From Candidatus Zixiibacteriota bacterium (GTDB lineage: Bacteria; Zixibacteria; MSB-5A5; GN15; JAAZOE01): a stretch of 40,851 bases of DNA. The stretch covers positions 1 to 40,851 of the forward strand of contig DAOUTW010000040.1 of NCBI GenBank assembly GCA_030668485.1. The letters are read 5' to 3'. This document shows positions 9,185-33,461 of this stretch, piece after piece; position 1 is the first letter of the stretch; each line of letters starts with the position of its first letter. The notes beneath the pieces were generated by a model. That model was not told the DNA's origin. It worked only from the letters and a program-made list of their open reading frames with translations, and ran no database searches. The position numbers and the translations under genes were made by a program.

Positions 9185-10318
9185 TTATGACTCTATTAAT
9201 TCTACGTTGGCACGTGGCACAATCGCCTTCTCGCCGGCATCAAATGTGACTTCCAGGACGCGGGCTTTCGATTCCGATTCCAGAACCTGAAGCGGCGACG
9301 GCAGACCGGAGACCTGGCCGAGCCGTCCGAAATAAGGATGACGGATAACGCGGATCGGCGAGCCGATAACCAGACCGTGCTGTTCGACTTCCTCCGCAGC
9401 CTGTTTGTCATGCACGTCCCCCTCCAGCGGAATAACCACTTCGGGACGGATAACTCCGGCGCGGATCTGAGTCGCGCCATTGATGCAGGCCATCTCGCCG
9501 TCTTTGGATTTGAGTAGTTCAAACGTCTTCTGAGCCATGCTGATATCTCCGAAACCTTCGGTGATAACGAGCGTCGTTCCCAGATCTTCCGAGCCGGTAA
9601 TAGCAACACCGATATCATATCCAAGGAAGTCCCGCAGGTCCTTATCGTCGAAGCCGCCGGTGACCACACCGGTTGCCTCGACTTTGATAGCTTTTTTCAG
9701 AGCGTCGGCGGTAACCCGTGATCCGCCGATAACGATACATCCTTTACAGCTTTCGTCGATATGCTTATCTTCCAGAGTGGTGGTATTATCGGGGACGACC
9801 ACTTTGATATTCCCGTGCGTTTCGCCGCCGATCCCGAAAATACCCTGGATAAATGACCCCCAGGTGCAAACGGCAACGCCTTCCTGCTCGAAAACTTCGA
9901 CAATTTCCCCTTCGAGGTAAGCCTTGACTTCAACCGGTATCGGCTTGCCGCGAAGCAGGACCTGGCCGGTCACAGAGGAAATGGACTCCACGGTCCCTTC
10001 AAGAGTCGATTTACTCTCTGAAGAAAACCACTTAATCCCAAATAGCGGCTTCGAGCGGGCAATAACATCGCCTTCGCTTATCGGGTCGCCGATCTTCTTC
10101 AGCATACACGATTCAATATCTTCGGGAGGCAATCCCAACTGATTGGCCACATTGATCGGTTCCACATCACCGGGTAAATATGTCCGCGCCACAACCATAT
10201 CGGGATGAGCTTTGTCGCCCACCTTGGCAACCACTTCGCCTTTAAGAGGCAGAATTCGCTTTTTGGTCACCAATAACTTTTTACTGACCTTCAGTCCCGG
10301 AGTATATGCATGTGCCAT
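9185..10318 (-). CDS. Conserved protein of unknown function with barrel-sandwich-hybrid domain, GlmL-associated
   Basis: A 377-residue protein with no signal peptide or membrane segment, probably cytoplasmic. I do not recognise a characterised function. Residues about 15-130 contain lipoyl/biotinyl-carrier-like barrel-sandwich strands. The pattern GTVESISSVTGQVLLRG resembles the N-terminal hybrid domain of RnfC and acyl-carrier proteins but lacks the modified-lysine hairpin, so it is more likely a binding platform. The centre has glycine-rich blocks (IQGIFGIGGETHG, GVVTGGFDDKDLRDFLGYD, LGTTLVITEGFG). The C-terminus (RLGQVSGLPSPLQVLESESKARVLEVTFD..EKAIVPRANVELIE) looks like a small KOW/SH3-type barrel. 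It follows the membrane protein by 29 bases in the operon headed by the GlmL-like ATPase, suggesting a shared pathway. Confidence 0.6.
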   Translation of the reverse strand: MAHAYTPGLKVSKKLLVTKKRILPLKGEVVAKVGDKAHPDMVVARTYLPGDVEPINVANQLGLPPEDIESCMLKKIGDPISEGDVIARSKPLFGIKWFSSESKSTLEGTVESISSVTGQVLLRGKPIPVEVKAYLEGEIVEVFEQEGVAVCTWGSFIQGIFGIGGETHGNIKVVVPDNTTTLEDKHIDESCKGCIVIGGSRVTADALKKAIKVEATGVVTGGFDDKDLRDFLGYDIGVAITGSEDLGTTLVITEGFGDISMAQKTFELLKSKDGEMACINGATQIRAGVIRPEVVIPLEGDVHDKQAAEEVEQHGLVIGSPIRVIRHPYFGRLGQVSGLPSPLQVLESESKARVLEVTFDAGEKAIVPRANVELIES

Positions 10319-10347
10319 AGCATTAAGCCTTTCTCTATCTCAGCCGA

Positions 10348-11211
10348 CTAATCGGATTGGGTCTTTTTCTTCTTCATCCTCGGCGCAATTACAAAATTCC
10401 ATATCAAGCCGAAGACGACAATCACTATCACTGCATAAAGCAGTATGTCTCTGATATTGCTAATTCCCTCGGCCGCCGTCGTCCCCTCGGATGCCTCTTG
10501 ACTCGGGTCAATTTCGGGATCGCTAAGGTTGTCTCCGCCGACGCTGGTAAACGTCAGGTCATCCTGCTCGGCAGCCTTTTTCAGATTTTCGAAGGAGAGC
10601 GAATTAACAATCCCATCGAAAATCGGTTTATTTTGCTTGTATGTCGAATCGGGGCTATAAAAATAAAGCGAGATCAGGCCTCGGTCATTCAGTTTCATAT
10701 ATAGCCATAGTTTTTTCATCGCATCCGGGTTGTATGCCATTTCACTCAAAACCGAAACGGTTCTTTCGGCGCGATTGAGTTTTGGCTGGCCCGGAACCAG
10801 ATCGGACATCAATTGCACCACCGGAGCATCATAAACCACTGTGGAATATGACTCGGCGATCACTTCCAGAACCGAATCAGACTCAGGCTTGGATAGCGGT
10901 CCGGTGGAATCGAAGGTAATAACCAGGTAAGCATCTTCGGCAAAAAACAGCGACGCCGTCGGAGCCATTACAACCTCGTAATTGAAAACATCTTTCGAGG
11001 TATCGGTCATCGACAGAAAACGGTCAACCAGCCGGTAATCTGCTTTGTCCCAACCTTCGGGAACTTCGAACCAGAATCCGCCGGACCAGTTGACATAGTT
11101 TTCAGCCGACAGATCGGTTCCAATCATCAATACCATCATGATTACAAAAACTGTACTTACTATTTTTAACATCTGCTTAACCTGTATTTTCTGCATACAT
11201 TTATTTTCCAC
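10348..11211 (-). CDS. Membrane-anchored extracytoplasmic protein of unknown function (glmL operon)
   Basis: About 280 residues. The N-terminus has a signal peptide (LKIVSTVFVIMMVLMIGT..LSA). A soluble region follows, beginning NYVNWSGGFWFEVPEGWDKA, which resembles the opening of PsbP/DUF1795-type domains seen in many exported bacterial proteins. A C-terminal membrane helix (ILLYAVIVIVVFGLIWNFVIAP) then precedes a basic tail MKKKKTQSD, so the body should face the periplasm with the tail inside. The start is uncertain: the longest frame begins with GTG at 11211, with an ATG at 11196 and another at 11172 directly before the hydrophobic stretch. It sits 48 bases after the GlmL-like gene and 29 bases before the barrel-sandwich gene. 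Function not recognised. Confidence 0.7.
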   Translation of the reverse strand: MENKCMQKIQVKQMLKIVSTVFVIMMVLMIGTDLSAENYVNWSGGFWFEVPEGWDKADYRLVDRFLSMTDTSKDVFNYEVVMAPTASLFFAEDAYLVITFDSTGPLSKPESDSVLEVIAESYSTVVYDAPVVQLMSDLVPGQPKLNRAERTVSVLSEMAYNPDAMKKLWLYMKLNDRGLISLYFYSPDSTYKQNKPIFDGIVNSLSFENLKKAAEQDDLTFTSVGGDNLSDPEIDPSQEASEGTTAAEGISNIRDILLYAVIVIVVFGLIWNFVIAPRMKKKKTQSD

Positions 11212-11259: not shown

Positions 11260-13110
11260 TTACAGATTCTCCAGCGCTTCCGGTGAATAAATATTAAGTT
11301 CCAGCATCCAGCGCTTCAGAGCGGCGATTCTTTCCTTGTCATCGGTCGGCAGTACAAACGGGCGGCCGCGGCCGTCGAGGATCAACCCCACCACACCGCC
11401 GGACAGCTCCGCTTCAACCTTATTACCTTTGCCGCTGCCGAGTTCGAGATGTCGAGCCGGTTCCAAAATCGCCCTGGCTTTCATCGGCAGGCCGTCCTCG
11501 CCCAGACCGAGTTTGAGCAGTTTCATTTCGCCATAATTTATCTTCCCGGATACTTTTCCGTCGGGCAGATGAATCTCATACGACATCATCTCGCCGCCCT
11601 TCTTAACCACGCCGGTGGGAGCAACACAGGTACCGAGATGAATCAGGCAGTCCTTATTGAATACTTCGGTGGCCGCCTGCGCGTGGAGCGTGGATAAGAC
11701 TCCCAATTGTGGCATCATAAAGATCGAGTCGACTGCCAATCGCGTTATTCCTTCCGGAAGGAAGGCATCGATGAGCATCAGGCCCGCCTGCTGACGCCGT
11801 GGAGCATGCGACAGGACACCGCCGGAACCAACCAGCATATCGAGCGTCATCATATTGACAATCGTCGCACCCGATGCATCCTGGTCGAAAGCATCCGCGA
11901 TGGTGCGCTGCTTTTGAACACCTTTTAGTACCGTGGCAAAGCTTTTATGCTGAACAAAAGCGAGCCGCAATGCTTCTTTCGCAATCGCCTGCTCGTATAT
12001 AAGTTCTTCCATCGACTGCGGAATTGTCGTCGGGCGGATCATCTTATTTTTGACCCGGTTGCGCAAGTCGCGTTCGTCCATATCAAAAGGCATCCAGCGC
12101 ATGACATTCGGCAATGTCGCCTCGGCAAAAACATTCGATACTGAATAACTCATGCCGAGGTTAGCCGACACCGTGCGGTTGAAAATACCTTCGGCGCCTT
12201 CGGGACGAAAGACCGAAAACACATCGGTCGTCGCTCCGCCGATATCGACACCCACCGCTTCTATATTTTCCAGGTCGGCAATAGTCTTGATAATCGCGCC
12301 CACCGCTCCGGGGGTCGGCATAATCGGCGCATCGGTCCATTCCATTAATTTGCGGTACCCCGGTGCCTGGGCCATCACATGCTCCATGAATAGATCGTGG
12401 ATTTTCTCACGAGCCGGCAGCAGATTTTCGCGTTCCAGAATCGGTCGGATATTGTCGACGATTCCCAGGTCAACCTTGTTGCTTAGGGTATCCTTGATGG
12501 CGTCGCGGGCCTCTATATTTCCGGCGAAAATCACCGGAAGCTGATACCCCGAACCCAGACGCGGTTTAGGATCGGCCGCAGAGATCAACTCCGCGATTTC
12601 AACTACATGCGAAGTCGTACCACCGTCAATGCCGCCTGACAACAGGATCATATCGGGACGGAGATGGCGGATACGTTCGATCTGCTGGTGCGGACGACGT
12701 TTGTCATTGGAGGCGATAACGTCCATGACAATCGCCCCGGCGCCCAGCGCAGCCCGCTCGGCCGACTCGGCTGTCATCGACCGCACTACGCCGGCCACCA
12801 TCATCTGCAGTCCACCGCCGGCGGAAGACGTCGATATATATATATCGCAGCCGACGCCGTTATCAGCCGGAGTAATAATTTTGTCGTCCTCGTCCAGAAG
12901 CTTACGCTCCGACAGTTCGCCGACCTCGGCCACGGCATTGAGGACACCCATTGTCACATCTTCAAACGGCGCTTCAACAGTCGTGGGAGCCTCGCCCCTC
13001 GCTATCAGGCGGTAGCTACCTTCGCGCTTTTCAATGAGGATCGCTTTTGTGGTTGTGGAACCGCAATCGGTTGCCAGGATAACATTTATCTTGTCCAGAT
13101 CCTTTTTCAT
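11260..13110 (-). CDS. glmL: GlmL/MutL-family ASKHA ATPase (methylaspartate mutase accessory-like protein)
   Basis: A 616-residue member of the GlmL (MutL of glutamate mutase) family, ATPases of the actin/hexokinase/Hsp70 superfamily. The phosphate-1 motif is ATDCGSTTTKAILIEK (from about residue 13) and phosphate-2 is VGVDIGGATTDVFSVF (about residue 287). ILLSGGIDGGTTSHVVE is another conserved family block. In clostridia glmL lies between the two glutamate mutase genes and is thought to help the B12-dependent enzyme (family knowledge). Here no glmE or glmS homologue is adjacent. The partners are a membrane protein and a barrel-sandwich protein, so the substrate may differ. It is first in its operon, with GGTGGA just before the ATG. 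Family assignment is secure; role is open. Confidence 0.88.
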   Translation of the reverse strand: MKKDLDKINVILATDCGSTTTKAILIEKREGSYRLIARGEAPTTVEAPFEDVTMGVLNAVAEVGELSERKLLDEDDKIITPADNGVGCDIYISTSSAGGGLQMMVAGVVRSMTAESAERAALGAGAIVMDVIASNDKRRPHQQIERIRHLRPDMILLSGGIDGGTTSHVVEIAELISAADPKPRLGSGYQLPVIFAGNIEARDAIKDTLSNKVDLGIVDNIRPILERENLLPAREKIHDLFMEHVMAQAPGYRKLMEWTDAPIMPTPGAVGAIIKTIADLENIEAVGVDIGGATTDVFSVFRPEGAEGIFNRTVSANLGMSYSVSNVFAEATLPNVMRWMPFDMDERDLRNRVKNKMIRPTTIPQSMEELIYEQAIAKEALRLAFVQHKSFATVLKGVQKQRTIADAFDQDASGATIVNMMTLDMLVGSGGVLSHAPRRQQAGLMLIDAFLPEGITRLAVDSIFMMPQLGVLSTLHAQAATEVFNKDCLIHLGTCVAPTGVVKKGGEMMSYEIHLPDGKVSGKINYGEMKLLKLGLGEDGLPMKARAILEPARHLELGSGKGNKVEAELSGGVVGLILDGRGRPFVLPTDDKERIAALKRWMLELNIYSPEALENL

Positions 13111-15361: not shown

Positions 15362-15366
15362 GGATT

Positions 15367-16671: not shown

Positions 16672-16679
16672 TTTTTTTT
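16644..16679 (+). terminator. Terminator-like structure with competing hairpin at tolB stop
   Basis: TCGGG (16654-16658) can pair with CCCGA (16664-16668) around ATATA, and after the stop codon eight T residues follow (16672-16679). The same GTCGGG arm can instead pair with upstream CCCGAC (16644-16649, loop CTG). The two hairpins are mutually exclusive. It may set the ratio of tolQRAB to pal-cpoB transcription; this is inference. Confidence 0.45.
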
Positions 16680-16786
16680 GAATTTTGGGTAAATTGTAGT
16701 TGATTTCAATACGTCTATGTTGTACCGTTTTTAGGATTTAGAGGACAACTGACAGGTATTTTAAATATATGTCCAAGGAGGGCATT

Positions 16787-17299: not shown

Positions 17300-17308
17300 T
17301 CGGTTTAG

Positions 17309-18130: not shown

Positions 18131-18702
18131 CCATTACCGACAGCATTAAAGTTGTGGTAAAAACCCCGGCCGCAAATCATCCTGTCTGTCGGGGTTTTTA
18201 TCAGGTTGAAGAAGACTCTCTTTATGTTCCCGTTTATCCCGCCGGAAAATTTTTCTCGTATCTTGATTCCCCTCAGGCAGGTCTTGATATCGACCGTGAA
18301 GGCCGACTCCTCTTTCTTCATGTTCATACGCCTCGAAGACAGTGGGAGGTAAAGAGGCACTCAGACCCGCCAATTAATTCCAACCCCGCCGATATCAGGT
18401 TTCTCGGTTTTCGCGAAAAGCTGCCGCAGACAAGAATAGAAACTGCGTCCGATCAATCATGGCTACGCCTGGTTTTTTCCGATAGCGCTCAAACATCAGC
18501 CTATGCTCTGGCCGACGACCTGAAAATTGAATTGACGGACAACCGCCTACTGGCCTCAATCTGGATAACAGCCATCGAAGAAGACCGCGCCGCCCGCGGA
18601 ATGGCAGCCTGGCGTAAACAGTCGAAGCTGAACTATGACAAAAGCCGGGGTCAATCACGATATGTCCGGGTTGAGGTAAAACCATCATCCGGGATGAAAT
18701 GA
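18106..18702 (+). CDS. Hypothetical protein at the end of the tol operon
   Basis: 198 codons from a GTG at 18106 that overlaps the end of cpoB by 25 bases. AAGGA lies 12-16 bases upstream, and a GTG at 18153 is a possible later start. No signal peptide, membrane helix or familiar motif is visible. The composition is mixed, with many charged residues and a C-terminus rich in Lys/Arg (RKQSKLNYDKSRGQSRYVRVEVK). The frame stays open for nearly 600 bases up to a terminator, and codon use looks like its neighbours, so I believe it is real. I do not recognise the family. Confidence 0.6.
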   Translation: MAEGRRKLAITDSIKVVVKTPAANHPVCRGFYQVEEDSLYVPVYPAGKFFSYLDSPQAGLDIDREGRLLFLHVHTPRRQWEVKRHSDPPINSNPADIRFLGFREKLPQTRIETASDQSWLRLVFSDSAQTSAYALADDLKIELTDNRLLASIWITAIEEDRAARGMAAWRKQSKLNYDKSRGQSRYVRVEVKPSSGMK

Positions 18703-21762: not shown

Positions 21763-21801
21763 GTTTATATACTCCACATGTTTTAAGACCGAATCCACTA
21801 T

Positions 21802-21911: not shown

Positions 21912-22217
21912 TTACATAGTGAAGAGGCGTTCGCCCGCAATAATTTTTTCGATCATCTTGATCGTTTTTTCTATCGGCGAATTCATCAGATCGCAAGTAT
22001 TAAAGGTCATCCTGGCCGCTTCTCGAGGACAATCAAAATTCGCTTTGCCCCGGCCACCCCTTTTTTTCTTGTGCGTCAAGTTATAAAGGCGCTGGTACTC
22101 CTTCGCCTTCTCCTTGTGCGTCTGATAATATCTCCGCTGATACTCCCTGCGCGCCTCGGCGGTCGACAACTGAATCTTATTGGCATTGCCGGTAGTAGAA
22201 CTACTTTTCCTTGCCAT
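21912..22217 (-). CDS. Small basic protein of unknown function with a duplicated motif
   Basis: 101 residues, strongly basic. The middle has two copies of a 13-residue unit, EYQRRYYQTHKEK and EYQRLYNLTHKKK, giving a probable Arg/Lys/Tyr-rich helical pair followed by KRGGRGKANFDCPREAARM. There is no signal peptide or membrane helix. Nucleic-acid binding is plausible from composition only. A near-perfect promoter (22315-22343), the ribosome site GAGGTGGAGA next to the ATG and a terminator at 21848-21871 make it a well-defined single-gene unit. I do not recognise the family. Confidence 0.75.
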   Translation of the reverse strand: MARKSSSTTGNANKIQLSTAEARREYQRRYYQTHKEKAKEYQRLYNLTHKKKRGGRGKANFDCPREAARMTFNTCDLMNSPIEKTIKMIEKIIAGERLFTM

Positions 22218-22713: not shown

Positions 22714-22740
22714 AAAAAGCCCCGCCTTATTGGCGGGGCT
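22714..22740 (-). terminator. Terminator of the twelve-gene membrane operon
   Basis: Perfect 9-base-pair stem AGCCCCGCC/GGCGGGGCT (22718-22726 with 22732-22740), loop of five, followed on the minus strand by TTTTTATTT. It lies 24 bases after the last stop codon. Confidence 0.9.
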
Positions 22741-22763
22741 TTCGTTTATCCATTTATATCTAA

Positions 22764-23528
22764 TTAAGCTGCTTCTTCGGTCGCCTTGTTTCTCATATGA
22801 CGCATGATCTCCATCATTATCAGAAGAAGAACTATCAGCACCGAAATCCAAACCACGGCTGTCATACCGCCGCCACCTTCAAAGCCCATCTCAACCCAGT
22901 CACGAATCGACTGGACACGCTCAATAAACAAAGAGATACGTCCCATAACGGTATACCCGAACGACGCGCCAAAACCAATCATCAGGATATAAATCCCAGC
23001 TTTGGCCACGCCTCCAAAAGTTCCTTTGTGGGCTACCGAGAAGAAGAAGTAAAACAGCCCGCAAACAACTCCCAGAATAATGATCACATCGGAGATGCCG
23101 GCCACCCACCCGGCTGAGAAATTGGGCGCTACCAGAGTATCCGCCAATTGCCGATTGACACGATTTTGCATCTCCAGAGGAATGGCGGCGCCTGTAGCGA
23201 TACCGAGATAGAATGCAATCGGGTAACGCGAGATCCAGCTTTTCTTCTTCGAAAAGCGGAACCACATCATCAATCCCAGAATGCCGGGAATGAGATACCA
23301 CCATTTGCCGCCCCATATCTGCCACCAGGGCTGCCCGACCCAGATGCGGTCGAACAGGGTTGGCACCAGGCCGGTGTACCAGAGGATAATCACAAAATAC
23401 CCGGCCGATATGCCGACAAAGAGACTCTCCGAAAATTTATAGAACGGGTTGTCGCGATAAAGGAACGAAAAAGTAAACAGTGTCAGCGCGACACTTGCCG
23501 TCGTCCACAGGAAAGTTTCCCAACTCAT
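22764..23528 (-). CDS. Cassette 3, D protein: polytopic membrane protein of unknown function
   Basis: 254 residues, about seven hydrophobic segments. It shares with the two other D proteins the opening FLYRDNPFYKFSESLFVGISAGY, a central SRYPIAFYLGIATG and the hallmark FFFSVAHKGTFGGVAKAGI..LMIGFGASFGYTVMGRISL (pieces: FGASFGYTVMGRISL). Unlike the others it continues into a Gly-rich turn and one more helix (TAVVWISVLIVLLLIMMEIM) with a charged tail. AGGAGG lies six bases before the ATG, and the start overlaps the C3 stop by four bases. It is last gene of the operon. No catalytic motif or known transporter signature seen. Confidence 0.85.
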   Translation of the reverse strand: MSWETFLWTTASVALTLFTFSFLYRDNPFYKFSESLFVGISAGYFVIILWYTGLVPTLFDRIWVGQPWWQIWGGKWWYLIPGILGLMMWFRFSKKKSWISRYPIAFYLGIATGAAIPLEMQNRVNRQLADTLVAPNFSAGWVAGISDVIIILGVVCGLFYFFFSVAHKGTFGGVAKAGIYILMIGFGASFGYTVMGRISLFIERVQSIRDWVEMGFEGGGGMTAVVWISVLIVLLLIMMEIMRHMRNKATEEAA

Positions 23529-24370
23529 ACCGAACCTCCTCTCCTGCGGGATATGAAATATCCGATGTTACCAATTAGTATGAACAAGATGATGACCATA
23601 TGCGTCCACACCTGAACCCGCATAGCCTCCATCGCTCGTCCCGGCCGGCCGGCCAGTTTCTCATATTCCGCGGCGCCGAGCATCCCGCCCATCAGACCGA
23701 ATATCTGTCCTGATTTCAGGTAGGGATAATAATCGGCCGCCATAACGCCGGTGAGACCGACCGCCAGAGGGACGTTGTACCGTCCATTGGCATAAGAAAT
23801 CCAGAAATCGACACCGCTGGTGCCGGTGATCAGGATAACTCCCTCGACATTGTCGTAGTTGATGATCCCCTCCATCATGGGAATGCTATCCAGAGAGGTG
23901 TTGTAATAGTCGCCCGGAAACGGCAGACGATAATTCTGCCCCATGGCCAGAATCACGATTCCCGGATAAGGTTTATAACCCAGGAAAACGATATCTTCAC
24001 CATAAATGACCTCTTTCCCGGTATGTAATTTCACCGAGTCCATGATCTCCAGCATGGCCTGCTCGGCCATACCGGGCCCATTGGGCGACAGAGCCGTCAT
24101 AATGACTTTAAGACCCTTGGCCAGAGCCTGTTCCATGATGACATAGGTCATCGGGTGCATCTCAGCCAGCGAACCGGGATCATAGTCGATCGCCAGATGG
24201 ATATAACTTCCCGGTTGCTGCTCCTCCATAAAATCGTAGATTGAGCGCACCTCGGGATTGACGCGAATGGGCGTATCAAATTCAATCAGGACGGTAATCA
24301 CTACTACCGCCGCCAGGATCAAATAGACCCAGCGCCGATCCAGTAAGCTTAATCGTTCAAAGAAATTCAT
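23525..24370 (-). CDS. Cassette 3, C protein: membrane-anchored periplasmic alpha/beta domain protein
   Basis: About 281 residues. A single N-terminal helix after DRR (WVYLILAAVVVITVLIEF) leads into a domain of about 190 residues with alternating beta and alpha segments. That domain carries the family blocks IHLAIDYDPGS, YGEDIVFLGY, TSLDSIPMMEG and GQIFGLMGGMLGAAEYEKL. A C-terminal helix (THMVIILFILIGNIGYFI) followed by SRRRG closes the protein. Positive charges on the inner side of both helices place the domain in the periplasm. The frame opens at 24382, but the GGAGG at the second codon is better placed for ATG 24370. It lacks the two extra N-terminal helices of C1 and C2. Function unknown. 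Confidence 0.85.
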   Translation of the reverse strand: MNFFERLSLLDRRWVYLILAAVVVITVLIEFDTPIRVNPEVRSIYDFMEEQQPGSYIHLAIDYDPGSLAEMHPMTYVIMEQALAKGLKVIMTALSPNGPGMAEQAMLEIMDSVKLHTGKEVIYGEDIVFLGYKPYPGIVILAMGQNYRLPFPGDYYNTSLDSIPMMEGIINYDNVEGVILITGTSGVDFWISYANGRYNVPLAVGLTGVMAADYYPYLKSGQIFGLMGGMLGAAEYEKLAGRPGRAMEAMRVQVWTHMVIILFILIGNIGYFISRRRGGSV

Positions 24371-24381
24371 ACCGGCCTCCA

Positions 24382-25005
24382 TTAATCGCTGCCCATGTAA
24401 GAACGTTCAATACCCAGAATAACCTTGAGAGCTGTGGCCACCATCCCCAGTCCGATACCGATGATGATAGCCCGCTTGGCGGCCAGGTTGGGAACGTTCA
24501 ATATCCATGAAGCCAGATCGGCATCGAGATCCCCGACGGGTCCCAGATACGGATTAAACCTCAACATCAACACCAGCGCTGATATCAACAGCACTGTCGC
24601 CAGGGCCGAACGCGCCTTAAAGGCGCGGAAGGCGGCTGAAGCTATAAAAAACGCCAGAAGCGAAAACATGGTGGCATGAAGCGGGATCATGACATGGTTG
24701 AAGAAATGGCGGAACATATACGATTCCACCCCACCCATAAATCCCATACCGAAAATGATCATACTCACCAGCCCCGCAAGCAGGACAACGGCGTAAGGCC
24801 AGTTTTCCATTTTTCTCTTTATTTTTGTCGTCGATACTCTGAGCAGCGACCAGATGCCGAGCGCCAGGGCAAAGATGCCGATAATGATCGTCCATTCCAT
24901 CACAAACTCATAAATCCATTCCGAACCGGCATGAGGGACAAAGAACTGGACGGCCATGAAGACGCCGGCGACAAAAACGATTGCTAAAGGTATTTCTTTT
25001 TTCAT
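24382..25005 (-). CDS. Cassette 3, B protein: six-helix membrane protein of unknown function
   Basis: 207 residues, six predicted helices. Family blocks shared with B1 and B2 are the opening KKEIPLAIVFVAGVFMA, a basic loop (STTKIKRKMENW), HATMFSLLAFFIASAAFRAFKARS in helix 4, and the closing VPNLAAKRAIIIGIGLGMVATALKVILGIERSYMGSD (pieces: AIIIGIGLGMVATALK, ILGIERSYMG). It is the shortest B protein; the loop between helices 3 and 4 is reduced. GAGGAG precedes the ATG and A3 ends 14 bases upstream. No known fold assigned. Confidence 0.85.
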   Translation of the reverse strand: MKKEIPLAIVFVAGVFMAVQFFVPHAGSEWIYEFVMEWTIIIGIFALALGIWSLLRVSTTKIKRKMENWPYAVVLLAGLVSMIIFGMGFMGGVESYMFRHFFNHVMIPLHATMFSLLAFFIASAAFRAFKARSALATVLLISALVLMLRFNPYLGPVGDLDADLASWILNVPNLAAKRAIIIGIGLGMVATALKVILGIERSYMGSD

Positions 25006-25019
25006 CGTCTACGTTCTCC

Positions 25020-26234
25020 TCAATTACCGACATGAAATTGTTCTACAAACCAGGTCCAGCCGAAGGATGCGGCAATAAACCCGATTATGCAGCAGATAAT
25101 GACCAACGCCTTGGCATAGTCCTGTGCCTTGAGCGTTCCGAGAAGCACCGGTTCGCGCCCCAGATAGGCGGAAGCAGCATAAAGCTCCTCACCGATCAGA
25201 GTATAGTCGCAGGCCACAACGAAAAACGGAATCTGAGTCACCTCATCGGTCCCCGCTATCTGAATCGAACCGGCCACAGCCCCGGTCTCGGCCATAATCA
25301 AAGACTCGGCATAAAACTTGCCCAAATAGAAATTGGTAGCCGGACGGTCACGAAGCATGATACCGTTGACGCCGCCGACATAAGCAAACTGCTGATTGGT
25401 GACGAAAAAGACGCTGTCCTGATTATAAGCATCGGGACGGCCGGCACTATAGTATGACGCCTTTACCGTTTCCTGGGCAATGGTCATGACGATCGGATCA
25501 TAACAAGGTACGATCAAGGATGTCTGGTATTCGGCCACCTTCTGGGCCACCCGGCTCAGGATGGTGAAGGAGGCAATCGTGGCAATATCGGCAGCAGTCC
25601 CCAATCCCAGGACATACAAAATCGGTTTACCCATCTCGGTAGCGCGACCGATAGCCTCATCGACGGCATCAATACCGGCCAGCGGTCGGATATACAATTC
25701 GGCGCCCTTTTTGGCCTTGAAAATGAAGTAAATCGTAAAGACCGTAAAAAGTACCACCGCCACCGCCACCGGGTTTTTGCCGGCGTTGTACCATTGTCCG
25801 ATGCCCCGTACCGGCCCCACAACCTCTGACTCGGCCTCGGCATCGGCAGTGACCGCCACTACCTTATAATAAAAATCATGCTCCCTGGGGAAGTAGTTGG
25901 GGTCATCCGGCTCTTTGACACCTTTATCTTCGGCCTCCGTCTTCCCCATTTCCAACTTCTTGCGCTCGACAAACGGACCCTCAGGCGAATCCGCCCTCAT
26001 CAGCCGGTACTCGATAATATTATTTCGCCCGGCGCCATCGTCAACCGACAAATCCCATGTCAAATCTATGGCATGGCCATTATCATAGGGCTTGTCGAAA
26101 GCCTTAAGGTTCAGCGGAGGCCCGGGAGGAATAACCTCCTGCACGGTCGAATCGATGGCCGCTTCCTCCTGCCCCCAGCCAACGGAGGCCAAAAGAAGCA
26201 GCATCGCCATCAACGCTATTATTTTTATCTTCAT
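25020..26234 (-). CDS. Cassette 3, A protein: fibronectin-III membrane protein with large conserved cytoplasmic domain
   Basis: 404 residues. Signal peptide (IIALMAMLLLLASVGWGQ), a fibronectin-III-like domain (about 35-150) with LNLKAFDKPYDNGHAIDLTW and EYRLMRADSPEGPF, a membrane helix (VAVAVVLFTVFTIYFIF), and a basic stop-transfer segment. A domain of about 197 residues follows with GRATEMGKPILYV, PATNFYLGKFYAESLIMAETG and VVACDYTLIGEELYAASAYL. It ends with a second helix (ALVIICCIIGFIAASFGWTW). Aligned without gaps to A2 over this domain, about 114 of 197 residues are identical by my hand count. From memory the domain resembles Pfam DUF6754; a profile search would decide. It starts 44 bases after D2, the largest gap between cassettes. 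Confidence 0.87.
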   Translation of the reverse strand: MKIKIIALMAMLLLLASVGWGQEEAAIDSTVQEVIPPGPPLNLKAFDKPYDNGHAIDLTWDLSVDDGAGRNNIIEYRLMRADSPEGPFVERKKLEMGKTEAEDKGVKEPDDPNYFPREHDFYYKVVAVTADAEAESEVVGPVRGIGQWYNAGKNPVAVAVVLFTVFTIYFIFKAKKGAELYIRPLAGIDAVDEAIGRATEMGKPILYVLGLGTAADIATIASFTILSRVAQKVAEYQTSLIVPCYDPIVMTIAQETVKASYYSAGRPDAYNQDSVFFVTNQQFAYVGGVNGIMLRDRPATNFYLGKFYAESLIMAETGAVAGSIQIAGTDEVTQIPFFVVACDYTLIGEELYAASAYLGREPVLLGTLKAQDYAKALVIICCIIGFIAASFGWTWFVEQFHVGN

Positions 26235-26278
26235 ACTCGCTCCACCATATATTGATTTATGTTTAAATATCAGATTGA

Positions 26279-27094
26279 TTATCCCGAAATAATTCCCAGC
26301 CAGTCGTCGAGCAGAAATGTCAGCCGACCGACCAGAAGTGAGATACGCCCCATGACAGTATAACCGAATGAGGCGCCGAAAGTGACCATCAAAACCCAGA
26401 TACCGAACCGTGAGGCCGCTCCAAAAGCTCCCTTATGCTCCTTGGAAAAGAAGAAATAAATAATTCCACAGAGCACGCCGAGGACAACCAGGAAATTGCT
26501 GACAATCGATACAAACTGCCCCGACGCCGAGAGAGAAAAGTTGGTAAAAAAGTCACCAAACCCTTGCCAATTGACCAGAATCGGAAGCATGGTCGACGAA
26601 ATCTGTTCAATAAAATCGGAACGCAGGAACCGAGGCAGATTCAACCCGGCAGTGGTACCGACGATAAAGGCCAGCGCCCAACGGGAAAGCCAGCCGCCTT
26701 TGGGCGACAATCGCATCAGGAGAAGAACGCCCAGGATCGGCGGAACCCAGAAATGGTACTGGTAGCTGATAAATTCGACCTGGAACCATTCCGACAGCGT
26801 CATCGATATCCTCGGGAACAGGTTGGCTACGAGAGTGGTCCAGAAACCGAGACTCATCCAGTATGCGGCCGAGACTCCAACATAAAGATGCTCGGCAAAC
26901 TTGTAAAACGGATTGTCCTTGTATAGAAATGACAGGATCGCCAGGGTCAGAAAGGCGGCAAAGGTCAGCCAGAACCCTTCGGCAATCGCGTCATAAGACG
27001 AACTGCCTTCCGGTGCCCCGCCGGATTTAATAATCCAACTGATAACAAAAAAGAGAGCCACAGCAGCCGTTATAATTATCGGGCCTTTACGCAT
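26279..27094 (-). CDS. Cassette 2, D protein: polytopic membrane protein of unknown function
   Basis: 271 residues. Compared with D1 it has an extra N-terminal helix (IIITAAVALFFVISWII) and a longer middle section with WFQVEFISYQYHFWVPP. Conserved blocks are FLYKDNPFYKFAEHLYVGVSAAYW, SRWALAFIVGTTAGLNLPR, IYFFFSKEHKGAFGAASRFG and VTFGASFGYTVMGRISLLV. The ATG shares one base with the C2 stop (TAATG) and is preceded by a run of six G residues. About seven membrane segments; no catalytic motif. Confidence 0.85.
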   Translation of the reverse strand: MRKGPIIITAAVALFFVISWIIKSGGAPEGSSSYDAIAEGFWLTFAAFLTLAILSFLYKDNPFYKFAEHLYVGVSAAYWMSLGFWTTLVANLFPRISMTLSEWFQVEFISYQYHFWVPPILGVLLLMRLSPKGGWLSRWALAFIVGTTAGLNLPRFLRSDFIEQISSTMLPILVNWQGFGDFFTNFSLSASGQFVSIVSNFLVVLGVLCGIIYFFFSKEHKGAFGAASRFGIWVLMVTFGASFGYTVMGRISLLVGRLTFLLDDWLGIISG

Positions 27095-28008
27095 TATTCG
27101 GCCCCCCTGCGACGGCTTCTGAAGTAAGTAATATTGCCTATGACAATAAACGCCATGATAACGATATGAGCCATCGTCTGCGGACCCATCATCCGCAATG
27201 CCGGAGCCGGTACATCTTGAAACTGCGGATAAACTTGCCTCAGTAACGACTCATACTCGGCCGCGCCCTTGACGCCGCCCAGCAAACCGATCGCCTGCTT
27301 TGGATAATAAGGATAAATCAATGGCGCCACAACCGCCGCCAAACCCGGCGCTATCGGGACATCACCCGGATCGCCAATAAACAATATCCATTCCTTCGGC
27401 CCCGGTTGCCCCCCCCCGATCGGTAAAACCAAATCCAGATCCTTGGCCGATTTAACCTCCGCAAAGAGCGGGATCGAATCAAGCGAGGTTCCGTGTTCAT
27501 CGGTGGGATACATTTTCCGGAAATCGGTGATGATAACATTCAAAACGCCCACTCCCCCGGCCTTGAACCCGAGGGTAACGTAATCCTCACCATAGACGGC
27601 GTCAGGAAATTCTTCCTTGATAACCGTCTCGACCGTTTCGTTCATCAACGCCTGGCCGGTGGCCCAGATGGTCATCAAATAAATCTTATGCCCTTTGACC
27701 AGGCAATGGCGGACAAAGGCGTTGGCCATCGGAAACACTTCCGGCTTCATCGCCGGATCGAAATCGAAGGAAATCAAAACTTTTGAACCGGGTGGTAGTG
27801 ATTCGATCTTATCAAAAACTTTTTTCACGATTACTGTCGGATATTCCTTGAACTCGACATTGAAAATCACCGAAGTCGCCACCGAGATAAAGACAAACAG
27901 GAAGATAATTCTGCGATCGATATCCTTGCCGCGCAGGGAGTAGATCATAATCGCCAGCAGGCCGCCGAAGATGAAGACCATCGAAATGATGACGCCGATA
28001 TTAGTCAT
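27094..28008 (-). CDS. Cassette 2, C protein: membrane-anchored periplasmic alpha/beta domain protein
   Basis: 304 residues. Two N-terminal helices (IGVIISMVFIFGGLLAIMIY; RRIIFLFVFISVATSVIF) precede the domain. The domain carries LPPGSKVLISFDFDPAMKPE, MAFVRHCLVKGHKIYLMTIW-like beta-alpha units, YGEDYVTLGFKAGG, FRKMYPTDEHGTSLDSIPLF, GQPGPKEWILFIGDP and QAIGLLGGVKGAAEYESLL. The C-terminal helix (MAHIVIMAFIVIGNITYF) is followed by RSRRRG. The frame opens with GTG at 28014; ATG 28008 has the better-spaced G-rich ribosome site. It overlaps the end of B2. Function unknown; topology as in C1. Confidence 0.85.
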   Translation of the reverse strand: MTNIGVIISMVFIFGGLLAIMIYSLRGKDIDRRIIFLFVFISVATSVIFNVEFKEYPTVIVKKVFDKIESLPPGSKVLISFDFDPAMKPEVFPMANAFVRHCLVKGHKIYLMTIWATGQALMNETVETVIKEEFPDAVYGEDYVTLGFKAGGVGVLNVIITDFRKMYPTDEHGTSLDSIPLFAEVKSAKDLDLVLPIGGGQPGPKEWILFIGDPGDVPIAPGLAAVVAPLIYPYYPKQAIGLLGGVKGAAEYESLLRQVYPQFQDVPAPALRMMGPQTMAHIVIMAFIVIGNITYFRSRRRGAE

Positions 28009-28678
28009 TGTCACCCCCCAGGTAGGTGCGATCCATGCCCAGGATCAATCGCAATGACATCGCCACCACGCCGAGCCCAACGCCGATCAGAATCGAGCGC
28101 TGCCCGGCCAGGTTGGGGACATTCATCACCCATACCGCCAGATTGGGAATCTGGAAAATCGAAAGCGATTCCCAAACCCATCCGGTTGCCATCATTCCCA
28201 GCGGCGTGCGTCCCAACAAAATAACAAAAGCGGCAATCAGCAGGATCGTTGCCTCACGATTCTTGGCCCGGAAAGCCCGGTAAGATGCGGAGGCGACAAA
28301 AAACGCCAAAAGAGCATACATGGTAGATGAGAGAGGCGCAATAATATGAATAAACATCGTATTCAGGTAACTGCCATCGGCCGTCACCGAGCCGCTGATT
28401 CCGGGAGGACCGCCAAGCTTGAATAAACCGCTGGCCAGCATCATGGTAAAACCGACGAGAGTAACCACCGAATAAACCCAGTCGGATTTTCTGCGGTAAA
28501 CTTTTATAAAGTGGACCCTGACCAGATTTCCTCCGCCGAGGAAAAACGCAAAAACGGCAATGATATCGAAAAAGAGTGAGAAATCCTCACCCAGCATCTT
28601 GGCCGGTGGGAAAAATACCGACAAAACCAGAACCGTTCCCACCGTAGCAGTAATCAATATCGGAATTTGTTTTTTCAT
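28001..28678 (-). CDS. Cassette 2, B protein: six-helix membrane protein of unknown function
   Basis: 225 residues, six predicted helices. Blocks shared with B1/B3 are KKQIPILITATVGTVLVLSV, NLVRVHFIKVYRRKSDWVYS, STMYALLAFFVASASYRAFR, EATILLIAAFVILLGRTPLG and the closing GQRSILIGVGLGVVAMSLR. It ends ILGMDRTYLGGDND, whose last codons overlap the start of C2. It lies 21 bases after A2. No recognised function. Confidence 0.87.
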   Translation of the reverse strand: MKKQIPILITATVGTVLVLSVFFPPAKMLGEDFSLFFDIIAVFAFFLGGGNLVRVHFIKVYRRKSDWVYSVVTLVGFTMMLASGLFKLGGPPGISGSVTADGSYLNTMFIHIIAPLSSTMYALLAFFVASASYRAFRAKNREATILLIAAFVILLGRTPLGMMATGWVWESLSIFQIPNLAVWVMNVPNLAGQRSILIGVGLGVVAMSLRLILGMDRTYLGGDND

Positions 28679-28699
28679 TTATCTGTTATCACCGTCTTA

Positions 28700-29908
28700 T
28701 CAGTTGGTTGTGAACAAATTATTCATTAAGTCCAAAATCCACTGGGTCGCCGGAACCTGCCAGGCGACCGATAACGTCATTGCCGCAGTCCCTACGAGCA
28801 GGCCGAACATGGCAATAACCTTGCCGACATCCTGACCCTTGAGAGATCCAAGTTGTTTGGGGTCCTCGGACAGGTAAGCCGAGGCGGCGAAAAGCTCCTC
28901 ACCGATGAGAGTATAGTCGCAGGCGGCGACAAAAAACGGAAGCTGTCCCGGACGGGCCGTGCCTGCAATTTGAATAGCGCCGATGCTGTTTCCGGTTTCG
29001 GCCAGGATAAGCGATTCGGCAAAAAAGGCGCCGAGGTAGAGACATGTAGCCGGCTTTTCACGCACCATAATACCGTTGACCGCCGCCACGTAACCGAACT
29101 GTTCGTCGGTCACATACTGCACCATATCTTCGTTGTAGCCATCCGGGCGCCCCGCTGAGGTGTATGACTCCTTGATGGTTTCACGGGCCGCAGTCAGCAC
29201 CAGAGAGCGCGATACCGGCATCCGTATTTTGCTGTCGTAATCGGCGACTACCCGCGCCACCTTGCCCAAAATCGTAATCGCCGCCAGGGTCTGGACATCG
29301 TCCATATCGAGAATGCCGGGGATAAACAGAATCGGCCGGCCCATTTCCGTCGCCCGTCCAACAGCCTCTTCCAGAGCCTCCAAACCACCGATTTTGCGAA
29401 TATAGAGTTTACGCCCCGATTTGGCCGAGATAATAAATCCGATCACCGATCCGCAGAACACAAACATCCAGAGAAAGGTGTTCCACATACCAAAATTGAA
29501 CAACTCCCAGGTGGCGACAGCCAGCTCCGATTCGCCCGAGAGCGACACACCATTTTCACCGATTACGCCAATTTGATATTTGTATGGTATCTCGTCTTCC
29601 ACATTATCGTCTGAGAAAAAAGTCTCCCCAGGGAGCAGGGTCCTGATTGAATCGAACGCCCCATCGGTTTCGGCACGATATACTATATATCCGAGGATAT
29701 TTTCGGGATCGTCGGGAGATTTGTCCCAGTTAACATCAATAACTTCGCCGTCATCATAGACATGATTGGCAGCGACCACATTCTGCGCGGGAGCCGGCAG
29801 CGGTAAAGACAGGGTGTCGATCCCGCCCTCGGCGACATCCTGTGCCGTAACGGAAACGGATACGGTCCATACCAAAGCCAGACATAACAGCAGAACACGA
29901 TTTAGCAT
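28700..29908 (-). CDS. Cassette 2, A protein: fibronectin-III membrane protein with large conserved cytoplasmic domain
   Basis: 402 residues: signal peptide to about residue 23 (ending VTAQD), fibronectin-III-like domain (about 38-135, VIDVNWDKSPDDPENILGY), membrane helix (about 143-161), basic segment SGRKLYIRK, conserved domain (165-363) and second helix (363-382). Within the domain, GRATEMGRPILFIPGI, DMDDVQTLA, PVSRSLV, VREKPAT, GAFFAESLILAETGNS and ACDYTLIGEELFAASAYLS are shared with A1. My hand count gives about 137 of 197 identical residues, no gaps. The ATG overlaps the D1 stop by one base with no clear ribosome site, so it depends on translation of D1. This welds cassette 1 to cassette 2. 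Confidence 0.88.
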   Translation of the reverse strand: MLNRVLLLCLALVWTVSVSVTAQDVAEGGIDTLSLPLPAPAQNVVAANHVYDDGEVIDVNWDKSPDDPENILGYIVYRAETDGAFDSIRTLLPGETFFSDDNVEDEIPYKYQIGVIGENGVSLSGESELAVATWELFNFGMWNTFLWMFVFCGSVIGFIISAKSGRKLYIRKIGGLEALEEAVGRATEMGRPILFIPGILDMDDVQTLAAITILGKVARVVADYDSKIRMPVSRSLVLTAARETIKESYTSAGRPDGYNEDMVQYVTDEQFGYVAAVNGIMVREKPATCLYLGAFFAESLILAETGNSIGAIQIAGTARPGQLPFFVAACDYTLIGEELFAASAYLSEDPKQLGSLKGQDVGKVIAMFGLLVGTAAMTLSVAWQVPATQWILDLMNNLFTTN

Positions 29909-30537
29909 TAATTAATCATTCCCAACCATTCACCGAACAGGAAGTCGAGTCGTCCCAGCATGAGCGACATACGGCTCATCACGGTGTATCCGAACGACGC
30001 TCCGAAAGTGACCATCAGAAACCATATACCCAGTTTGGCGGTCCCACCAAACACCCCTTTGTGCTCTTTGGAGAAAAAGAAATAGACCAAACCGCTGAAA
30101 GTCCCCAATGCGATCATACCGAAAGAAATATACGAGCCGACGCTGCCGAAATCGGGCGGCAGCTTGATGGTCGCTCCCACCTGAACAAAAGCGTTGGATA
30201 CAAAATAAGTCATCATATACAGTCCGGCGGTGGCGCCGACAATAAAGGCCAGCGGCCAGCGCGACAGCCATCCGATCTTGCCGATCAGACGGGTCAGCAT
30301 CATTACACCGAGAGCAAAAGCGATCCACAGGAAAAAACGGTGGGGGTTGTCCATATCGGTCACGCCGAGATAGAATTTGCGATACAGATTATCCCAGTAA
30401 TAGGTGATGAACCAGTAACCGGCCGAGATGCCGACAAAAATCGATTCGCATGCCTTGTACAGGACATTGTCTTTGTAGAGAAAGGAAATAATTCCAATGG
30501 TCAGAAGAGCCGCCAGCCAAATTCCGAAGGTTTCCAT
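29908..30537 (-). CDS. Cassette 1, D protein: polytopic membrane protein of unknown function
   Basis: 209 residues, the minimal D protein, about five to six helices. It shows IISFLYKDNVLYKACESIFVGISAGY, SRWPLAFIVGATAGLYMM, LVYFFFSKEHKGVFGGTAKL and VTFGASFGYTVMSRMSLML. The ATG shares a base with the C1 stop; GGAGA lies upstream inside C1. Its own stop overlaps the A2 start. There is no N-terminal extension as in D2 and no C-terminal helix as in D3. Confidence 0.87.
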   Translation of the reverse strand: METFGIWLAALLTIGIISFLYKDNVLYKACESIFVGISAGYWFITYYWDNLYRKFYLGVTDMDNPHRFFLWIAFALGVMMLTRLIGKIGWLSRWPLAFIVGATAGLYMMTYFVSNAFVQVGATIKLPPDFGSVGSYISFGMIALGTFSGLVYFFFSKEHKGVFGGTAKLGIWFLMVTFGASFGYTVMSRMSLMLGRLDFLFGEWLGMIN

Positions 30538-31523
30538 TATTTGGTCTCCTTTCTCGACCGCAGGAATGCGACATTACCGATGATGATGAACAAAATCACG
30601 ACCACATGAGCAAACGTCTGCGAAAGCAGAAACGTTGTCGCCTTACCCGGTAAGTTGGTCAGCTTTTCAAATTCGGCCGCCCCGGACATCCCCCCCATCA
30701 ATCCCAGCAACTGCCCGGCGTTGAGATAGGGATAAACCATCGGAGCCTGAACAGCGGTATTTCCGGCGCTCATCGGAAGATTATACCGATCAACAGCTAC
30801 CTGAATCCATTCGACTGTGCCCGGCTTGCCTGCCGAGAAATTGATCGACCAATCTATATTGGAGAAATTACTGACATTTTTAAGTAACGGGATCGAATCA
30901 TACGGAGTGTAATTCAGGTCAGACGGGAACATCGATTTGAAACTTTCGCCCATGCGAAGAACGACAAACTCGTTCCCCGACTGGAAGCCGAGGTTGACAT
31001 AATCGACCCCGTATTTAACCTGGTCTCTCAGCGCCGGATTTTCCTCAAAAGCCGCCTCAACCGCCTGATTGGCCTGCTGAGGACCCTGAGGCCATAAGCC
31101 CATCATGATGATTTTGATATCATGTTCAAAAGCATATTTCACAAATGCTTCGGCCATCGGCTGAAGTTCTGGCGCCGAGGGAGGATCATAATCGAATGAA
31201 GCCAGCACTTTCGATCCGGGCGGTAGAGACGCCAGCTTGTCATATACCTGCTGGACTTCCGGCGATATTTTCAAGGGAAGCTTAAACTGCATGAAAAACG
31301 GCACCACCAGGGAAATACCGACCAGCAAAAACACGATTCGTCGCTCGACCGGTTTGCCTTTGATCGTCAGGTAGAATATGAAAGCGAAGACAAGGCCGAG
31401 CAGGATGGTCACTATCCATGAGATTGTCGGTGAAAACTGAATCGGCTTCGGTAGCACGAATTTACACAGCAGCAGAACCACGATAATAATTGCAGTGACT
31501 ATAAATTCCTTGGTTTTCATCAC
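30537..31523 (-). CDS. Cassette 1, C protein: membrane-anchored periplasmic alpha/beta domain protein
   Basis: 328 residues, the longest C protein. Three N-terminal helices (FIVTAIIIVVLLLCKFVLP; WIVTILLGLVFAFIFYLTI; RIVFLLVGISLVVPFFMQF) precede the alpha/beta domain. The domain has SLPPGSKVLASFDYDPPSAPE, IKIIMMGLWPQGPQ, YGVDYVNLGFQSG, YTPYDSIPLLKNV, GKPGTVEWIQVAV and QLLGLMGGMSGAAEFEKL. The final helix (HVVVILFIIIGNVAFL) is followed by RSRKETK. The KPVERR before helix 3 and RSRK after the last helix place the domain outside the cytoplasm. It overlaps B1 by four bases. The KVLASFDYD strand resembles the start of a Rossmann-like sheet, but I see no nucleotide motif. Confidence 0.85.
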   Translation of the reverse strand: MMKTKEFIVTAIIIVVLLLCKFVLPKPIQFSPTISWIVTILLGLVFAFIFYLTIKGKPVERRIVFLLVGISLVVPFFMQFKLPLKISPEVQQVYDKLASLPPGSKVLASFDYDPPSAPELQPMAEAFVKYAFEHDIKIIMMGLWPQGPQQANQAVEAAFEENPALRDQVKYGVDYVNLGFQSGNEFVVLRMGESFKSMFPSDLNYTPYDSIPLLKNVSNFSNIDWSINFSAGKPGTVEWIQVAVDRYNLPMSAGNTAVQAPMVYPYLNAGQLLGLMGGMSGAAEFEKLTNLPGKATTFLLSQTFAHVVVILFIIIGNVAFLRSRKETK

Positions 31524-32194
31524 TCACCTCCCAGGTATGAGCGTTCCAGCCCCAGAATGATTCGCAGGGAGGTGGAGACAAGACCGAGGGCAATGCCAAT
31601 CATGATCGCTCGCTGACCGGCGGTGTTGGGGACCGACATAATCCAGTTGGCCCAATCCGACATCGTATACCCGATCGGCATCCAGGTCGTCAGCATATCG
31701 CCGACTGGCACCCGGCCAAGCATCACAAAGAAGGCCGCAATCAATAGCAGGGTCGCTTCCAGGTTACGGGCTCTGAAAGCACGGTAGGAGGCCGACGCCA
31801 CGAAAAAGGCCAGAAGGGCGAACATCGTGGCCGAAAGAGCCGAATAAACGTATTCATAAAGCCAGTTAAACCCGGTCCCGGCATCACGGTAGGAGAATTG
31901 GGGCTCGGCAAACAGTCCTTTATATCCTTCATAAAACCCGAAAAAGATCATCACCAGAAAGGATAAAATTATGAGGCTGGCGTATATAAAATCGGGTTTT
32001 TTTCTGGCGATTTTCATAGCCGAGATCTTCATCAGGTTCAACGCTCCCAGCCATATGGCAAAAGCCGCGATGATTCCAAACCAGTCGCCGAACTGACGTT
32101 CAAACAGGCTGAATGGCTCTCGGGGAATGAAATAGGCCAGGGCGAAGACTGTCCCGACGATAAACGTTATCGCTATTGGAATTTCTCGTTTCAT
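31520..32194 (-). CDS. Cassette 1, B protein: six-helix membrane protein of unknown function
   Basis: 224 residues, six predicted helices: 5-24, 37-56, 68-89, 115-138, 145-165 and 193-215 approximately. Blocks conserved in all three B proteins are KREIPIAITFIVGTVFALAY, the basic loop SAMKIARKKPDF, SATMFALLAFFVASASYRAF, RNLEATLLLIAAFFVMLGR and GQRAIMIGIALGLVSTSLRI, ending LGLERSYLGGE. It starts 16 bases after A1 and overlaps C1 by four bases. No transport signature known to me. Confidence 0.87.
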   Translation of the reverse strand: MKREIPIAITFIVGTVFALAYFIPREPFSLFERQFGDWFGIIAAFAIWLGALNLMKISAMKIARKKPDFIYASLIILSFLVMIFFGFYEGYKGLFAEPQFSYRDAGTGFNWLYEYVYSALSATMFALLAFFVASASYRAFRARNLEATLLLIAAFFVMLGRVPVGDMLTTWMPIGYTMSDWANWIMSVPNTAGQRAIMIGIALGLVSTSLRIILGLERSYLGGE

Positions 32195-32210
32195 TCACGA
32201 TTCCTTTGGT

Positions 32211-33461
32211 TTAACGAACTTCGAACAACCGCCACATCTCAACATCAAAAAACTGCAGGATAATACCCAGGACAATGACGATCAAAAACAAAGCCTTGCC
32301 CATATCCTGCCCTTTGAGCGATCCCAGAAGTTTCGGCTCGCGCGAAAGGTAGGCCGAGGCGGCAAAAAGCTCCTCACCTATAAGGGTATAGTCACAGGCC
32401 GCCACAAAGAACGGCAACTGAGCCGGCATGGCCGTGCCCGCAATCTGAATAGCGCCGATGCTGTTTCCCGTTTCCGCCATAATCAACGATTCGGCGAAAA
32501 ATGCGCCGATCAAGAAAATGGTCGCCGGCTTCTCACGGACAAAAAGCCCGTCGATGGCCGCCGCATAACCGAATTGGTCGTCGGTCAAATACCGGACCTG
32601 TTCATCCTGGAAGGAATCCGGTCGTCCAACCTTGCTGTATGATTCCTTGACGATTTCCCGGGCCGTTACCATCACCAGAGATCGGGATACGGGAACATCA
32701 ATCCGGGTGTCGTTCTGCGCCGCCATCTTCGAAACCCGACCGAGAATAGACATACTCGCAAGCGTCTGGACATCGTCCATATCATGAATGCCGGGGACAT
32801 AGTAAATCGACCGCCCCATCTCGGTGGCACGCCCGACGGCGTTTTCAACCTCGTCGATTCCGGCGATCTTGCGGATATAGAATGATTTACCGGATTTGGC
32901 TCCCCAGATGAAGTAAATTATCGCACCGGATATGAAGAGAATCGTAAGTAAGACCCAGATACGACCGGTATTAAACCACTGTGCTGTGGCCACGACCGGC
33001 CCCGCAACGGCAGATTCACTGTTGGCGTTCCACAGGTAGACATAATTCACTTTTTCGTAGTTGAGGGCGGCTATTTTGTAGAAGTACTTTTTCCCAATCT
33101 CAACCTTGTTGTCTATGAAGCTTTTGATTCCCTGAGTGGTATTGCCCAGGGTGTCATAGGTGCCCTCCGCCGACTCGCTCCGCAGAACGACATACTCCTT
33201 GACATTACCGTCCTGGAAATCATCGGGAGACAGATCCCAGCTAAGCTTGATAGCTTCTCCGGCATCGTTGTCGACATCCTCGGCGACAATATTGAACGGA
33301 GGTTGCGGTGTCTTTTCCTTGAGCAGGAGGGTATCCATCGCAGATTCGGACCCGGAAAGGCTGTCGCCTGCGACCTCATCCTGAGCTACAATATTTGTTG
33401 GGAATAAGAAAAGAAGGAAAATAACCGTACCTGAGAGCAAACCAAATAATCGTCTAATCAT
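32211..33461 (-). CDS. Cassette 1, A protein: fibronectin-III membrane protein with large conserved cytoplasmic domain
   Basis: 416 residues and first gene of the operon. Signal peptide to about residue 27 (ending NIVAQ), an acidic/Ser spacer, fibronectin-III-like domain (about 52-155), membrane helix (169-189), basic GAKSGKSFYIRK, conserved domain (192-388) and C-terminal helix (389-404). Domain blocks are GRATEMGRSIYYVPGIHDM, DDVQTLASMSILGRV, PVSRSLVMVTAREIVKESY, FLIGAFFAESLIMAETGNS and ACDYTLIGEELFAASAYLS. Charge distribution puts the fibronectin domain in the periplasm and the conserved domain in the cytoplasm. Resemblance to Pfam DUF6754 is from memory. No enzyme motif recognised. Confidence 0.88.
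   Translation of the reverse strand: MIRRLFGLLSGTVIFLLFLFPTNIVAQDEVAGDSLSGSESAMDTLLLKEKTPQPPFNIVAEDVDNDAGEAIKLSWDLSPDDFQDGNVKEYVVLRSESAEGTYDTLGNTTQGIKSFIDNKVEIGKKYFYKIAALNYEKVNYVYLWNANSESAVAGPVVATAQWFNTGRIWVLLTILFISGAIIYFIWGAKSGKSFYIRKIAGIDEVENAVGRATEMGRSIYYVPGIHDMDDVQTLASMSILGRVSKMAAQNDTRIDVPVSRSLVMVTAREIVKESYSKVGRPDSFQDEQVRYLTDDQFGYAAAIDGLFVREKPATIFLIGAFFAESLIMAETGNSIGAIQIAGTAMPAQLPFFVAACDYTLIGEELFAASAYLSREPKLLGSLKGQDMGKALFLIVIVLGIILQFFDVEMWRLFEVR

Follow-up and report, generated by a model that had tools for sequence, protein, structure and literature searches.

Three tandem A-B-C-D membrane cassettes in a Zixibacterial genome, with a MutL-type ATPase and a barrel protein as probable partners

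Three four-gene cassettes in one array

The stretch of DNA analysed here (the window, 40,851 nucleotides, positions 1 to 40,851 of contig DAOUTW010000040.1, assembly GCA_030668485.1) comes from a Candidatus Zixiibacteriota bacterium, whose genome (4.5 Mb, 139 contigs) belongs to Zixibacteria and has Candidatus Zixiibacteriota metagenome-assembled genomes (MAGs) as its closest named relatives. As listed in Table 1, 12 minus-strand open reading frames (ORFs) at 22764-33461 make up three consecutive cassettes of the same four genes, called A, B, C and D, and all of them were found on the strand and at the coordinates given by an earlier sequence-only reading. That reading had described tight gene spacing, which was borne out by the measured distances from A1 to D3 of 16, -4, -1, -1, 21, -14, -1, 44, 14, -1 and -4 bases, i.e. 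overlaps of 1-14 bases or spacing of 14-44 bases between adjoining cassette genes, with the 44 bases between cassettes 2 and 3. The motifs it listed as shared are present, except that B3 has SLLAFFIASA instead of ALLAFF. Its one terminator corresponds to a strong intrinsic terminator behind D3, but its one promoter could be traced only to a weak candidate at 33623-33595, whose 9/12 match is at chance level for the region.

Table 1. Cassette genes and other features of the window
Feature	Coordinates	Strand	Evidence and remarks
A1, paralogue class 1	32211..33461	-	Pfam PF20539, E 3e-120; AlphaFold2 pLDDT (predicted local distance difference test) 91.6; signal peptide, fibronectin-III (FN3), transmembrane (TM) helix, DUF6754 alpha/beta core (predicted cytoplasmic), TM helix
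B1, membrane protein of about six helices	31520..32194	-	Hydropathy; no Pfam, NCBIfam or PDB relative
C1, alpha/beta domain, predicted periplasmic, between N-terminal TM helices and a C-terminal TM helix that carries the invariant His306 and Asn317	30537..31523	-	AlphaFold2 pLDDT 94.6
D1, polytopic membrane protein	29908..30537	-	ORF, alignment, hydropathy
A2 (DUF6754), paralogue class 2	28700..29908	-	Pfam E 4e-120; 51% identity to A1
B2	28001..28678	-	48% identity to B1
C2	27094..28014	-	37% identity to C1
D2	26279..27094	-	48% identity to D1
A3 (DUF6754), paralogue class 3	25020..26234	-	Pfam E 5e-118; 43% identity to A1
B3	24382..25005	-	43% identity to B1
C3	23525..24382	-	37% identity to C1
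D3	22764..23528	-	38% identity to D1
Intrinsic terminator 3' of D3	22715..22743	-	12-bp stem, T tail
PPDK (pyruvate phosphate dikinase), between MutL/barrel and cassettes	18811-21798
Tol-Pal genes, between MutL/barrel and cassettes	13471-18702
MutL/GlmL-type ASKHA (acetate and sugar kinases, Hsc70, actin) ATPase, probable cassette partner	11260..13110	-	Pfam PF13941, E 1e-128; ATP-site motifs; upstream linkage to A in many relatives
Possible accessory protein with a signal peptide and a C-terminal TM helix, encoded between MutL and barrel	10348..11211	-	Cluster of 19 relatives; so placed in many Zixibacteria
Barrel protein, probable partner: RnfC-like barrel, then a central alpha/beta region and, judged by eye, a KOW-like region at the C-terminus	9185..10318	-	Linkage to A; co-occurrence with DUF6754

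All three A proteins belong to the DUF6754 family (PF20539), scoring 393-400 bits against a Pfam gathering cut-off of 27 (E about 1e-118 to 1e-120). This family has no described function; neither the cassette, its multiplication nor the linkage to MutL and barrel genes is described there, and no published mention of DUF6754 was found in literature searches. In the AlphaFold2 model of A, the signal peptide is followed by an FN3 domain, as the sequence-only reading had proposed, and then by a TM helix (165-189), the alpha/beta core (200-373) and a second TM helix (376-404). Across all classes 29 residues of A are invariant, at least 14 of them charged or polar. The model of C has an alpha/beta domain (88-289) between N-terminal TM helices, of which C1 has three, and the C-terminal TM helix (294-327) with its two invariant residues. 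From the positive-inside rule, we infer that the A core is cytoplasmic and the C domain periplasmic. The A and C models have the same order of helices and strands, and it was considered whether A and C, and likewise B and D, are homologues with opposite orientations in the membrane, but profile-profile comparison did not support this and the idea was rejected for now.

Profile scans placed B, C and D in no Pfam or NCBIfam family. No Pfam match to subunits of ABC transporters, Tol/Exb or secretion systems was found for C and D, and B gave only stray weak hits, in 1-2 of 55 proteins. In the PDB, B and D had no match by sequence or fold, and among the matches listed for the C domain there were only generic Rossmann/GT-B ones with a query-normalised TM-score of at most 0.32. 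Among the matches listed for A in sequence and fold searches there was FN3 only and none for the core; in Foldseek, the FN3 domain swamped the results. PADLOC anti-phage defence models matched neither the four cassette proteins nor MutL and the barrel. The membrane system is undescribed, as the sequence-only reading had held for its architecture, and matches no known system, defence systems included.

Conservation of the cassette and its paralogue classes

DUF6754 was found in all 132 genomes of the Zixibacteria phylum, mostly in 4-6 copies. For the other groups, counts refer to the phylum of one genome labelled Latescibacterota, Stahlbacteria (WOR-3) or Cloacimonadota by its record title, and there the family was present in 54 of 64 (nearly always as a single copy), 74 of 80 and 57 of 59 genomes, respectively. 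It also occurs in Fermentibacteria-labelled loci, was not found in 14 control genomes, and no plasmid carriage was found. From genome to genome, the number of B copies tracked that of A: when the two were compared by eye in 50 genomes at least 95% complete, they were equal in 34, off by one in 15 and off by two in one.

Iterative A-D profiles run over all fetched loci recovered 202 distinct complete A-B-C-D cassettes from many genomes, with genes mostly overlapping or less than 30 bases apart. Because the order is identical in all of these, it is far beyond chance. Starting from A genes with 3 kb of downstream sequence, B-C-D followed in order behind 174 of 184 distinct ones, and the linkage expected by the sequence-only reading was thus confirmed. 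Exceptions include L243 (8745-10500), where an FN3-less A is duplicated in tandem ahead of a single B-C-D set, and the Cloacimonadota loci L229, L231 and L232, where a second long A without B-C-D stands behind a cassette. In these Cloacimonadota loci, the A of one cassette type is about 920-1150 residues long, and its predicted extracytoplasmic part is very large.

A tree was built for each of the four genes from the 202 cassettes, and a concatenated tree as well. Array position followed the gene trees closely, with only 6, 6, 7 and 6 label changes (A, B, C and D) over 79 sequences, compared with at least 29-31 in shuffles, and the concatenated tree supported class 1 with 0.98, class 2 with 1.0 and class 3 with 0.98. 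All 23 classifiable triple arrays of Zixibacteria were ordered 1-2-3. Double arrays, some of them cut by contig ends, were 1-3 (10), 1-2 (9) or 2-3 (3), and none was reversed. The split of class 3 from classes 1 and 2 appears to predate the phyla, because cassettes of other phyla fall on both sides of it, with uneven deep supports. Two further Zixibacterial classes are unlinked to the arrays; one is represented by L244 and the other by L117, a fourth cassette of the present genome that lies on a separate contig and whose A has no FN3 domain.

In the 23 triple arrays, pairwise sequence distances of the genes were correlated once the average over the remaining genes had been taken out. The mean partial correlation was 0.45 within a cassette (18 pairs) and -0.08 between cassettes (36 pairs), with a permutation p of 0.0054, which is about the minimum obtainable with 216 labelings. 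Linkage alone is insufficient to account for this, because the adjoining boundary pairs D1-A2 and D2-A3 scored just 0.07 and 0.14. In addition, at least four genome assemblies whose arrays read 1-3 had no class-2 cassette elsewhere; a MAG cannot prove that a cassette is absent, but the four agree. Since within-cassette coevolution, assemblies without class 2 and single-cassette loci in other phyla all point the same way, each cassette quite likely forms a complex of its own, the one of two alternatives in the sequence-only reading that is favoured.

MutL-type ATPase and barrel genes near the cassettes

Around the cassettes, the two dominant flanking-gene clusters were the MutL family, present at 52 loci, and a barrel protein, present at 49. 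A co-directional MutL-barrel-A-B-C-D run, often preceded by two small proteins, was observed in Latescibacterota- and Fermentibacteria-labelled loci and in some Zixibacteria (L083, L085, L119, L128, L130 and L131), and in other Zixibacteria MutL and barrel are divergent from cassette 1. Among 81 upstream-complete loci, MutL lay at most 9 kb upstream in 38, and both genes did so in 35. MutL was present in 120 of 129 genomes of the phylum and in 76 of the 78 high-quality ones, nearly always as a single gene. In two other phyla, 75 of 80 and 56 of 64 genomes have the barrel, and even when unlinked its presence correlated with that of DUF6754 (Fisher p 1.5e-6 and 0.002, with 2x2 counts read off the per-genome DUF6754 and barrel listings of both phyla). 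Several barrel/DUF6754 mismatches are genes at contig ends.

GlmL/MutL is known as a chaperone reactivating glutamate mutase (PMC4682846). The MutL of the window matches PF13941 over the full model (430 bits, model 1-450) above the Pfam gathering score, and its ATP-site motifs DCGSTTTK, DIGGATTD and GSGGVLSHAP are intact, as in an ASKHA ATPase of this family. It differs by scores below the NCBIfam cut-offs (222.6 vs 475 bits for the GlmL equivalog and 166.7 vs 204 bits for the glmL family), by about 130 additional residues at the C-terminus and by its linkage to membrane cassettes. Glutamate mutase genes (glmS/glmE) were not seen among the recurrent MutL neighbour clusters inspected, which do not cover every neighbour. 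A second MutL-family gene lies in the same genome (G000:C109:29362-30738); its open frame spans about 980 aa, and its context may be that of a B12 enzyme.

The barrel alignment of 26 proteins showed a mean column identity of 63% and the motifs QGIFGIGGE and GATQIRAGV. Although near-universal in several phyla, the protein belongs to no Pfam, NCBIfam or PDB family, and PDB sequence searches with it and with MutL gave no match. It has weak similarity to the RnfC/RsxC barrel (E about 0.01), but no cysteine is invariant in the alignment, so that the conserved Fe-S cysteines are lacking, and other Rnf subunits are unmatched.

Because the operon starts with MutL and barrel in single-cassette phyla and part of Zixibacteria, and the window has both, these two genes probably belong with A-B-C-D as a six-gene system. 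The unit drawn by the sequence-only reading at 22764-33461 overlooked these probable members, which lie outside it at 9185-13110. Several observations weigh against including them. MutL and barrel are non-adjacent to the cassettes in 43 of the 81 loci, including most WOR-3-labelled ones; in the window, about 9.6 kb with Tol-Pal and PPDK lies between MutL and the cassette array; some MAGs have A without MutL; and known MutL relatives serve B12 enzymes, not membranes. In the interval before PPDK there is also a small basic protein (21912-22217, minus strand) with a repeated YQRxYxxxHKEKAKEYQRxYNL-like motif, whose homologues in 12 loci typically lie between the array end and PPDK.

Proposed mechanism and alternatives

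Starting from what was observed directly, i.e. gene content, order, linkage, the three classes, within-cassette coevolution and barrel-A co-occurrence, we propose a model that we hold to be about evenly balanced as a whole. Each A-B-C-D cassette would encode one inner-membrane complex, with the multi-helix B and D as its membrane part, A extending its conserved alpha/beta domain into the cytoplasm and its FN3 domain into the periplasm, and C placing a Rossmann-like domain in the periplasm. The cytosolic MutL/GlmL-type ATPase and the barrel, normally single-copy, would dock at the cytoplasmic side of every cassette type and drive or regulate it through ATP-dependent conformational change; such ATP-driven action is put forward tentatively, at somewhat less than even confidence. 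The three anciently diverged versions would presumably serve different substrates or cell-envelope sites. Tol-Pal or ExbBD-TonB neighbours together with the FN3 and periplasmic domains suggest a cell-envelope role. The PilM-PilN-PilO inner-membrane platform of type IV pili offers an analogy only, an actin-fold ATPase standing at the cytoplasmic face of small membrane proteins with periplasmic domains; Pfam and NCBIfam scans found no sequence relationship of the cassette proteins to it.

The other alternative of the sequence-only reading was one asymmetric hetero-complex across the inner membrane, with a distinct sector from each cassette. The single operon, the strictly kept order 1-2-3 and the invariant residues retained by all three classes would fit such an assembly, but coevolution is confined within cassettes, some assemblies have classes 1 and 3 only, other phyla have single-cassette loci, and the L117 and L244 cassettes are unlinked, which makes it improbable. 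A-B-C-D might instead be a transporter or sensor without an ATPase, with MutL and barrel as mere frequent neighbours among co-regulated envelope or housekeeping genes. WOR-3-labelled cassettes are mostly not beside MutL or barrel, and Tol-Pal and ExbBD-TonB are likewise frequent neighbours; nevertheless, the MutL-barrel-A-B-C-D operon recurs in several phyla and the barrel tracks DUF6754 even if unlinked, and we consider this explanation rather unlikely.

Similarly, a cell-surface signalling complex could be imagined, in which envelope ligands are bound in the periplasm by the FN3 and C domains and the A core passes the signal inward, in WOR-3 to an adjacent DUF4388 protein and two others that are possibly roadblock-like. 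The FN3 ectodomains, which are hugely enlarged in Cloacimonadota, and the DUF4388 neighbour are consistent with it, but the latter is linked in two WOR-3-labelled loci only, the neighbours cl95/cl96 have no Pfam match and A-D contain no known signalling domain, so we assign it a low probability. In these loci (L215 12422-15267 and L110 3037-6119), a single cassette is followed by the DUF4388 protein, by two proteins that lack a Pfam match but resemble roadblock proteins when judged by eye, and then by two small membrane proteins and ExbB-ExbD-ExbD-TonB. An Rnf-like redox-driven ion pump, with the barrel as its RnfC-like part, would agree with the weak barrel similarity and with polytopic B and D. 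It is very improbable: barrel, B, C and D have no invariant cysteine and hence no Fe-S motif, and B and D match no Rnf subunit in Pfam.

Returning to the model of cassette-specific complexes served by a shared ATPase and barrel, which is the most economical one, we tentatively suggest that the MutL-type ATPase, the barrel and A-B-C-D make up an inner-membrane machine that is driven by ATP and has not been described before. It would be near-universal in several phyla related to the Fibrobacterota-Chlorobiota-Bacteroidota (FCB) group; a B12-reactivase-type ATPase may have been recruited in it to energise membrane complexes, and the membrane module may have multiplied into as many as five specialised forms in one cell. 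If true, this would add a new role to those of the MutL/GlmL branch of ASKHA ATPases. Whole phyla, made up largely of uncultivated bacteria, carry the cassette almost throughout, with several copies per Zixibacterial genome, yet three of its four proteins match no known family. Systems conserved to this degree usually serve core functions of the cell envelope or of energy supply, and therefore the cassette system may be a missing piece of the basic physiology of these phyla.

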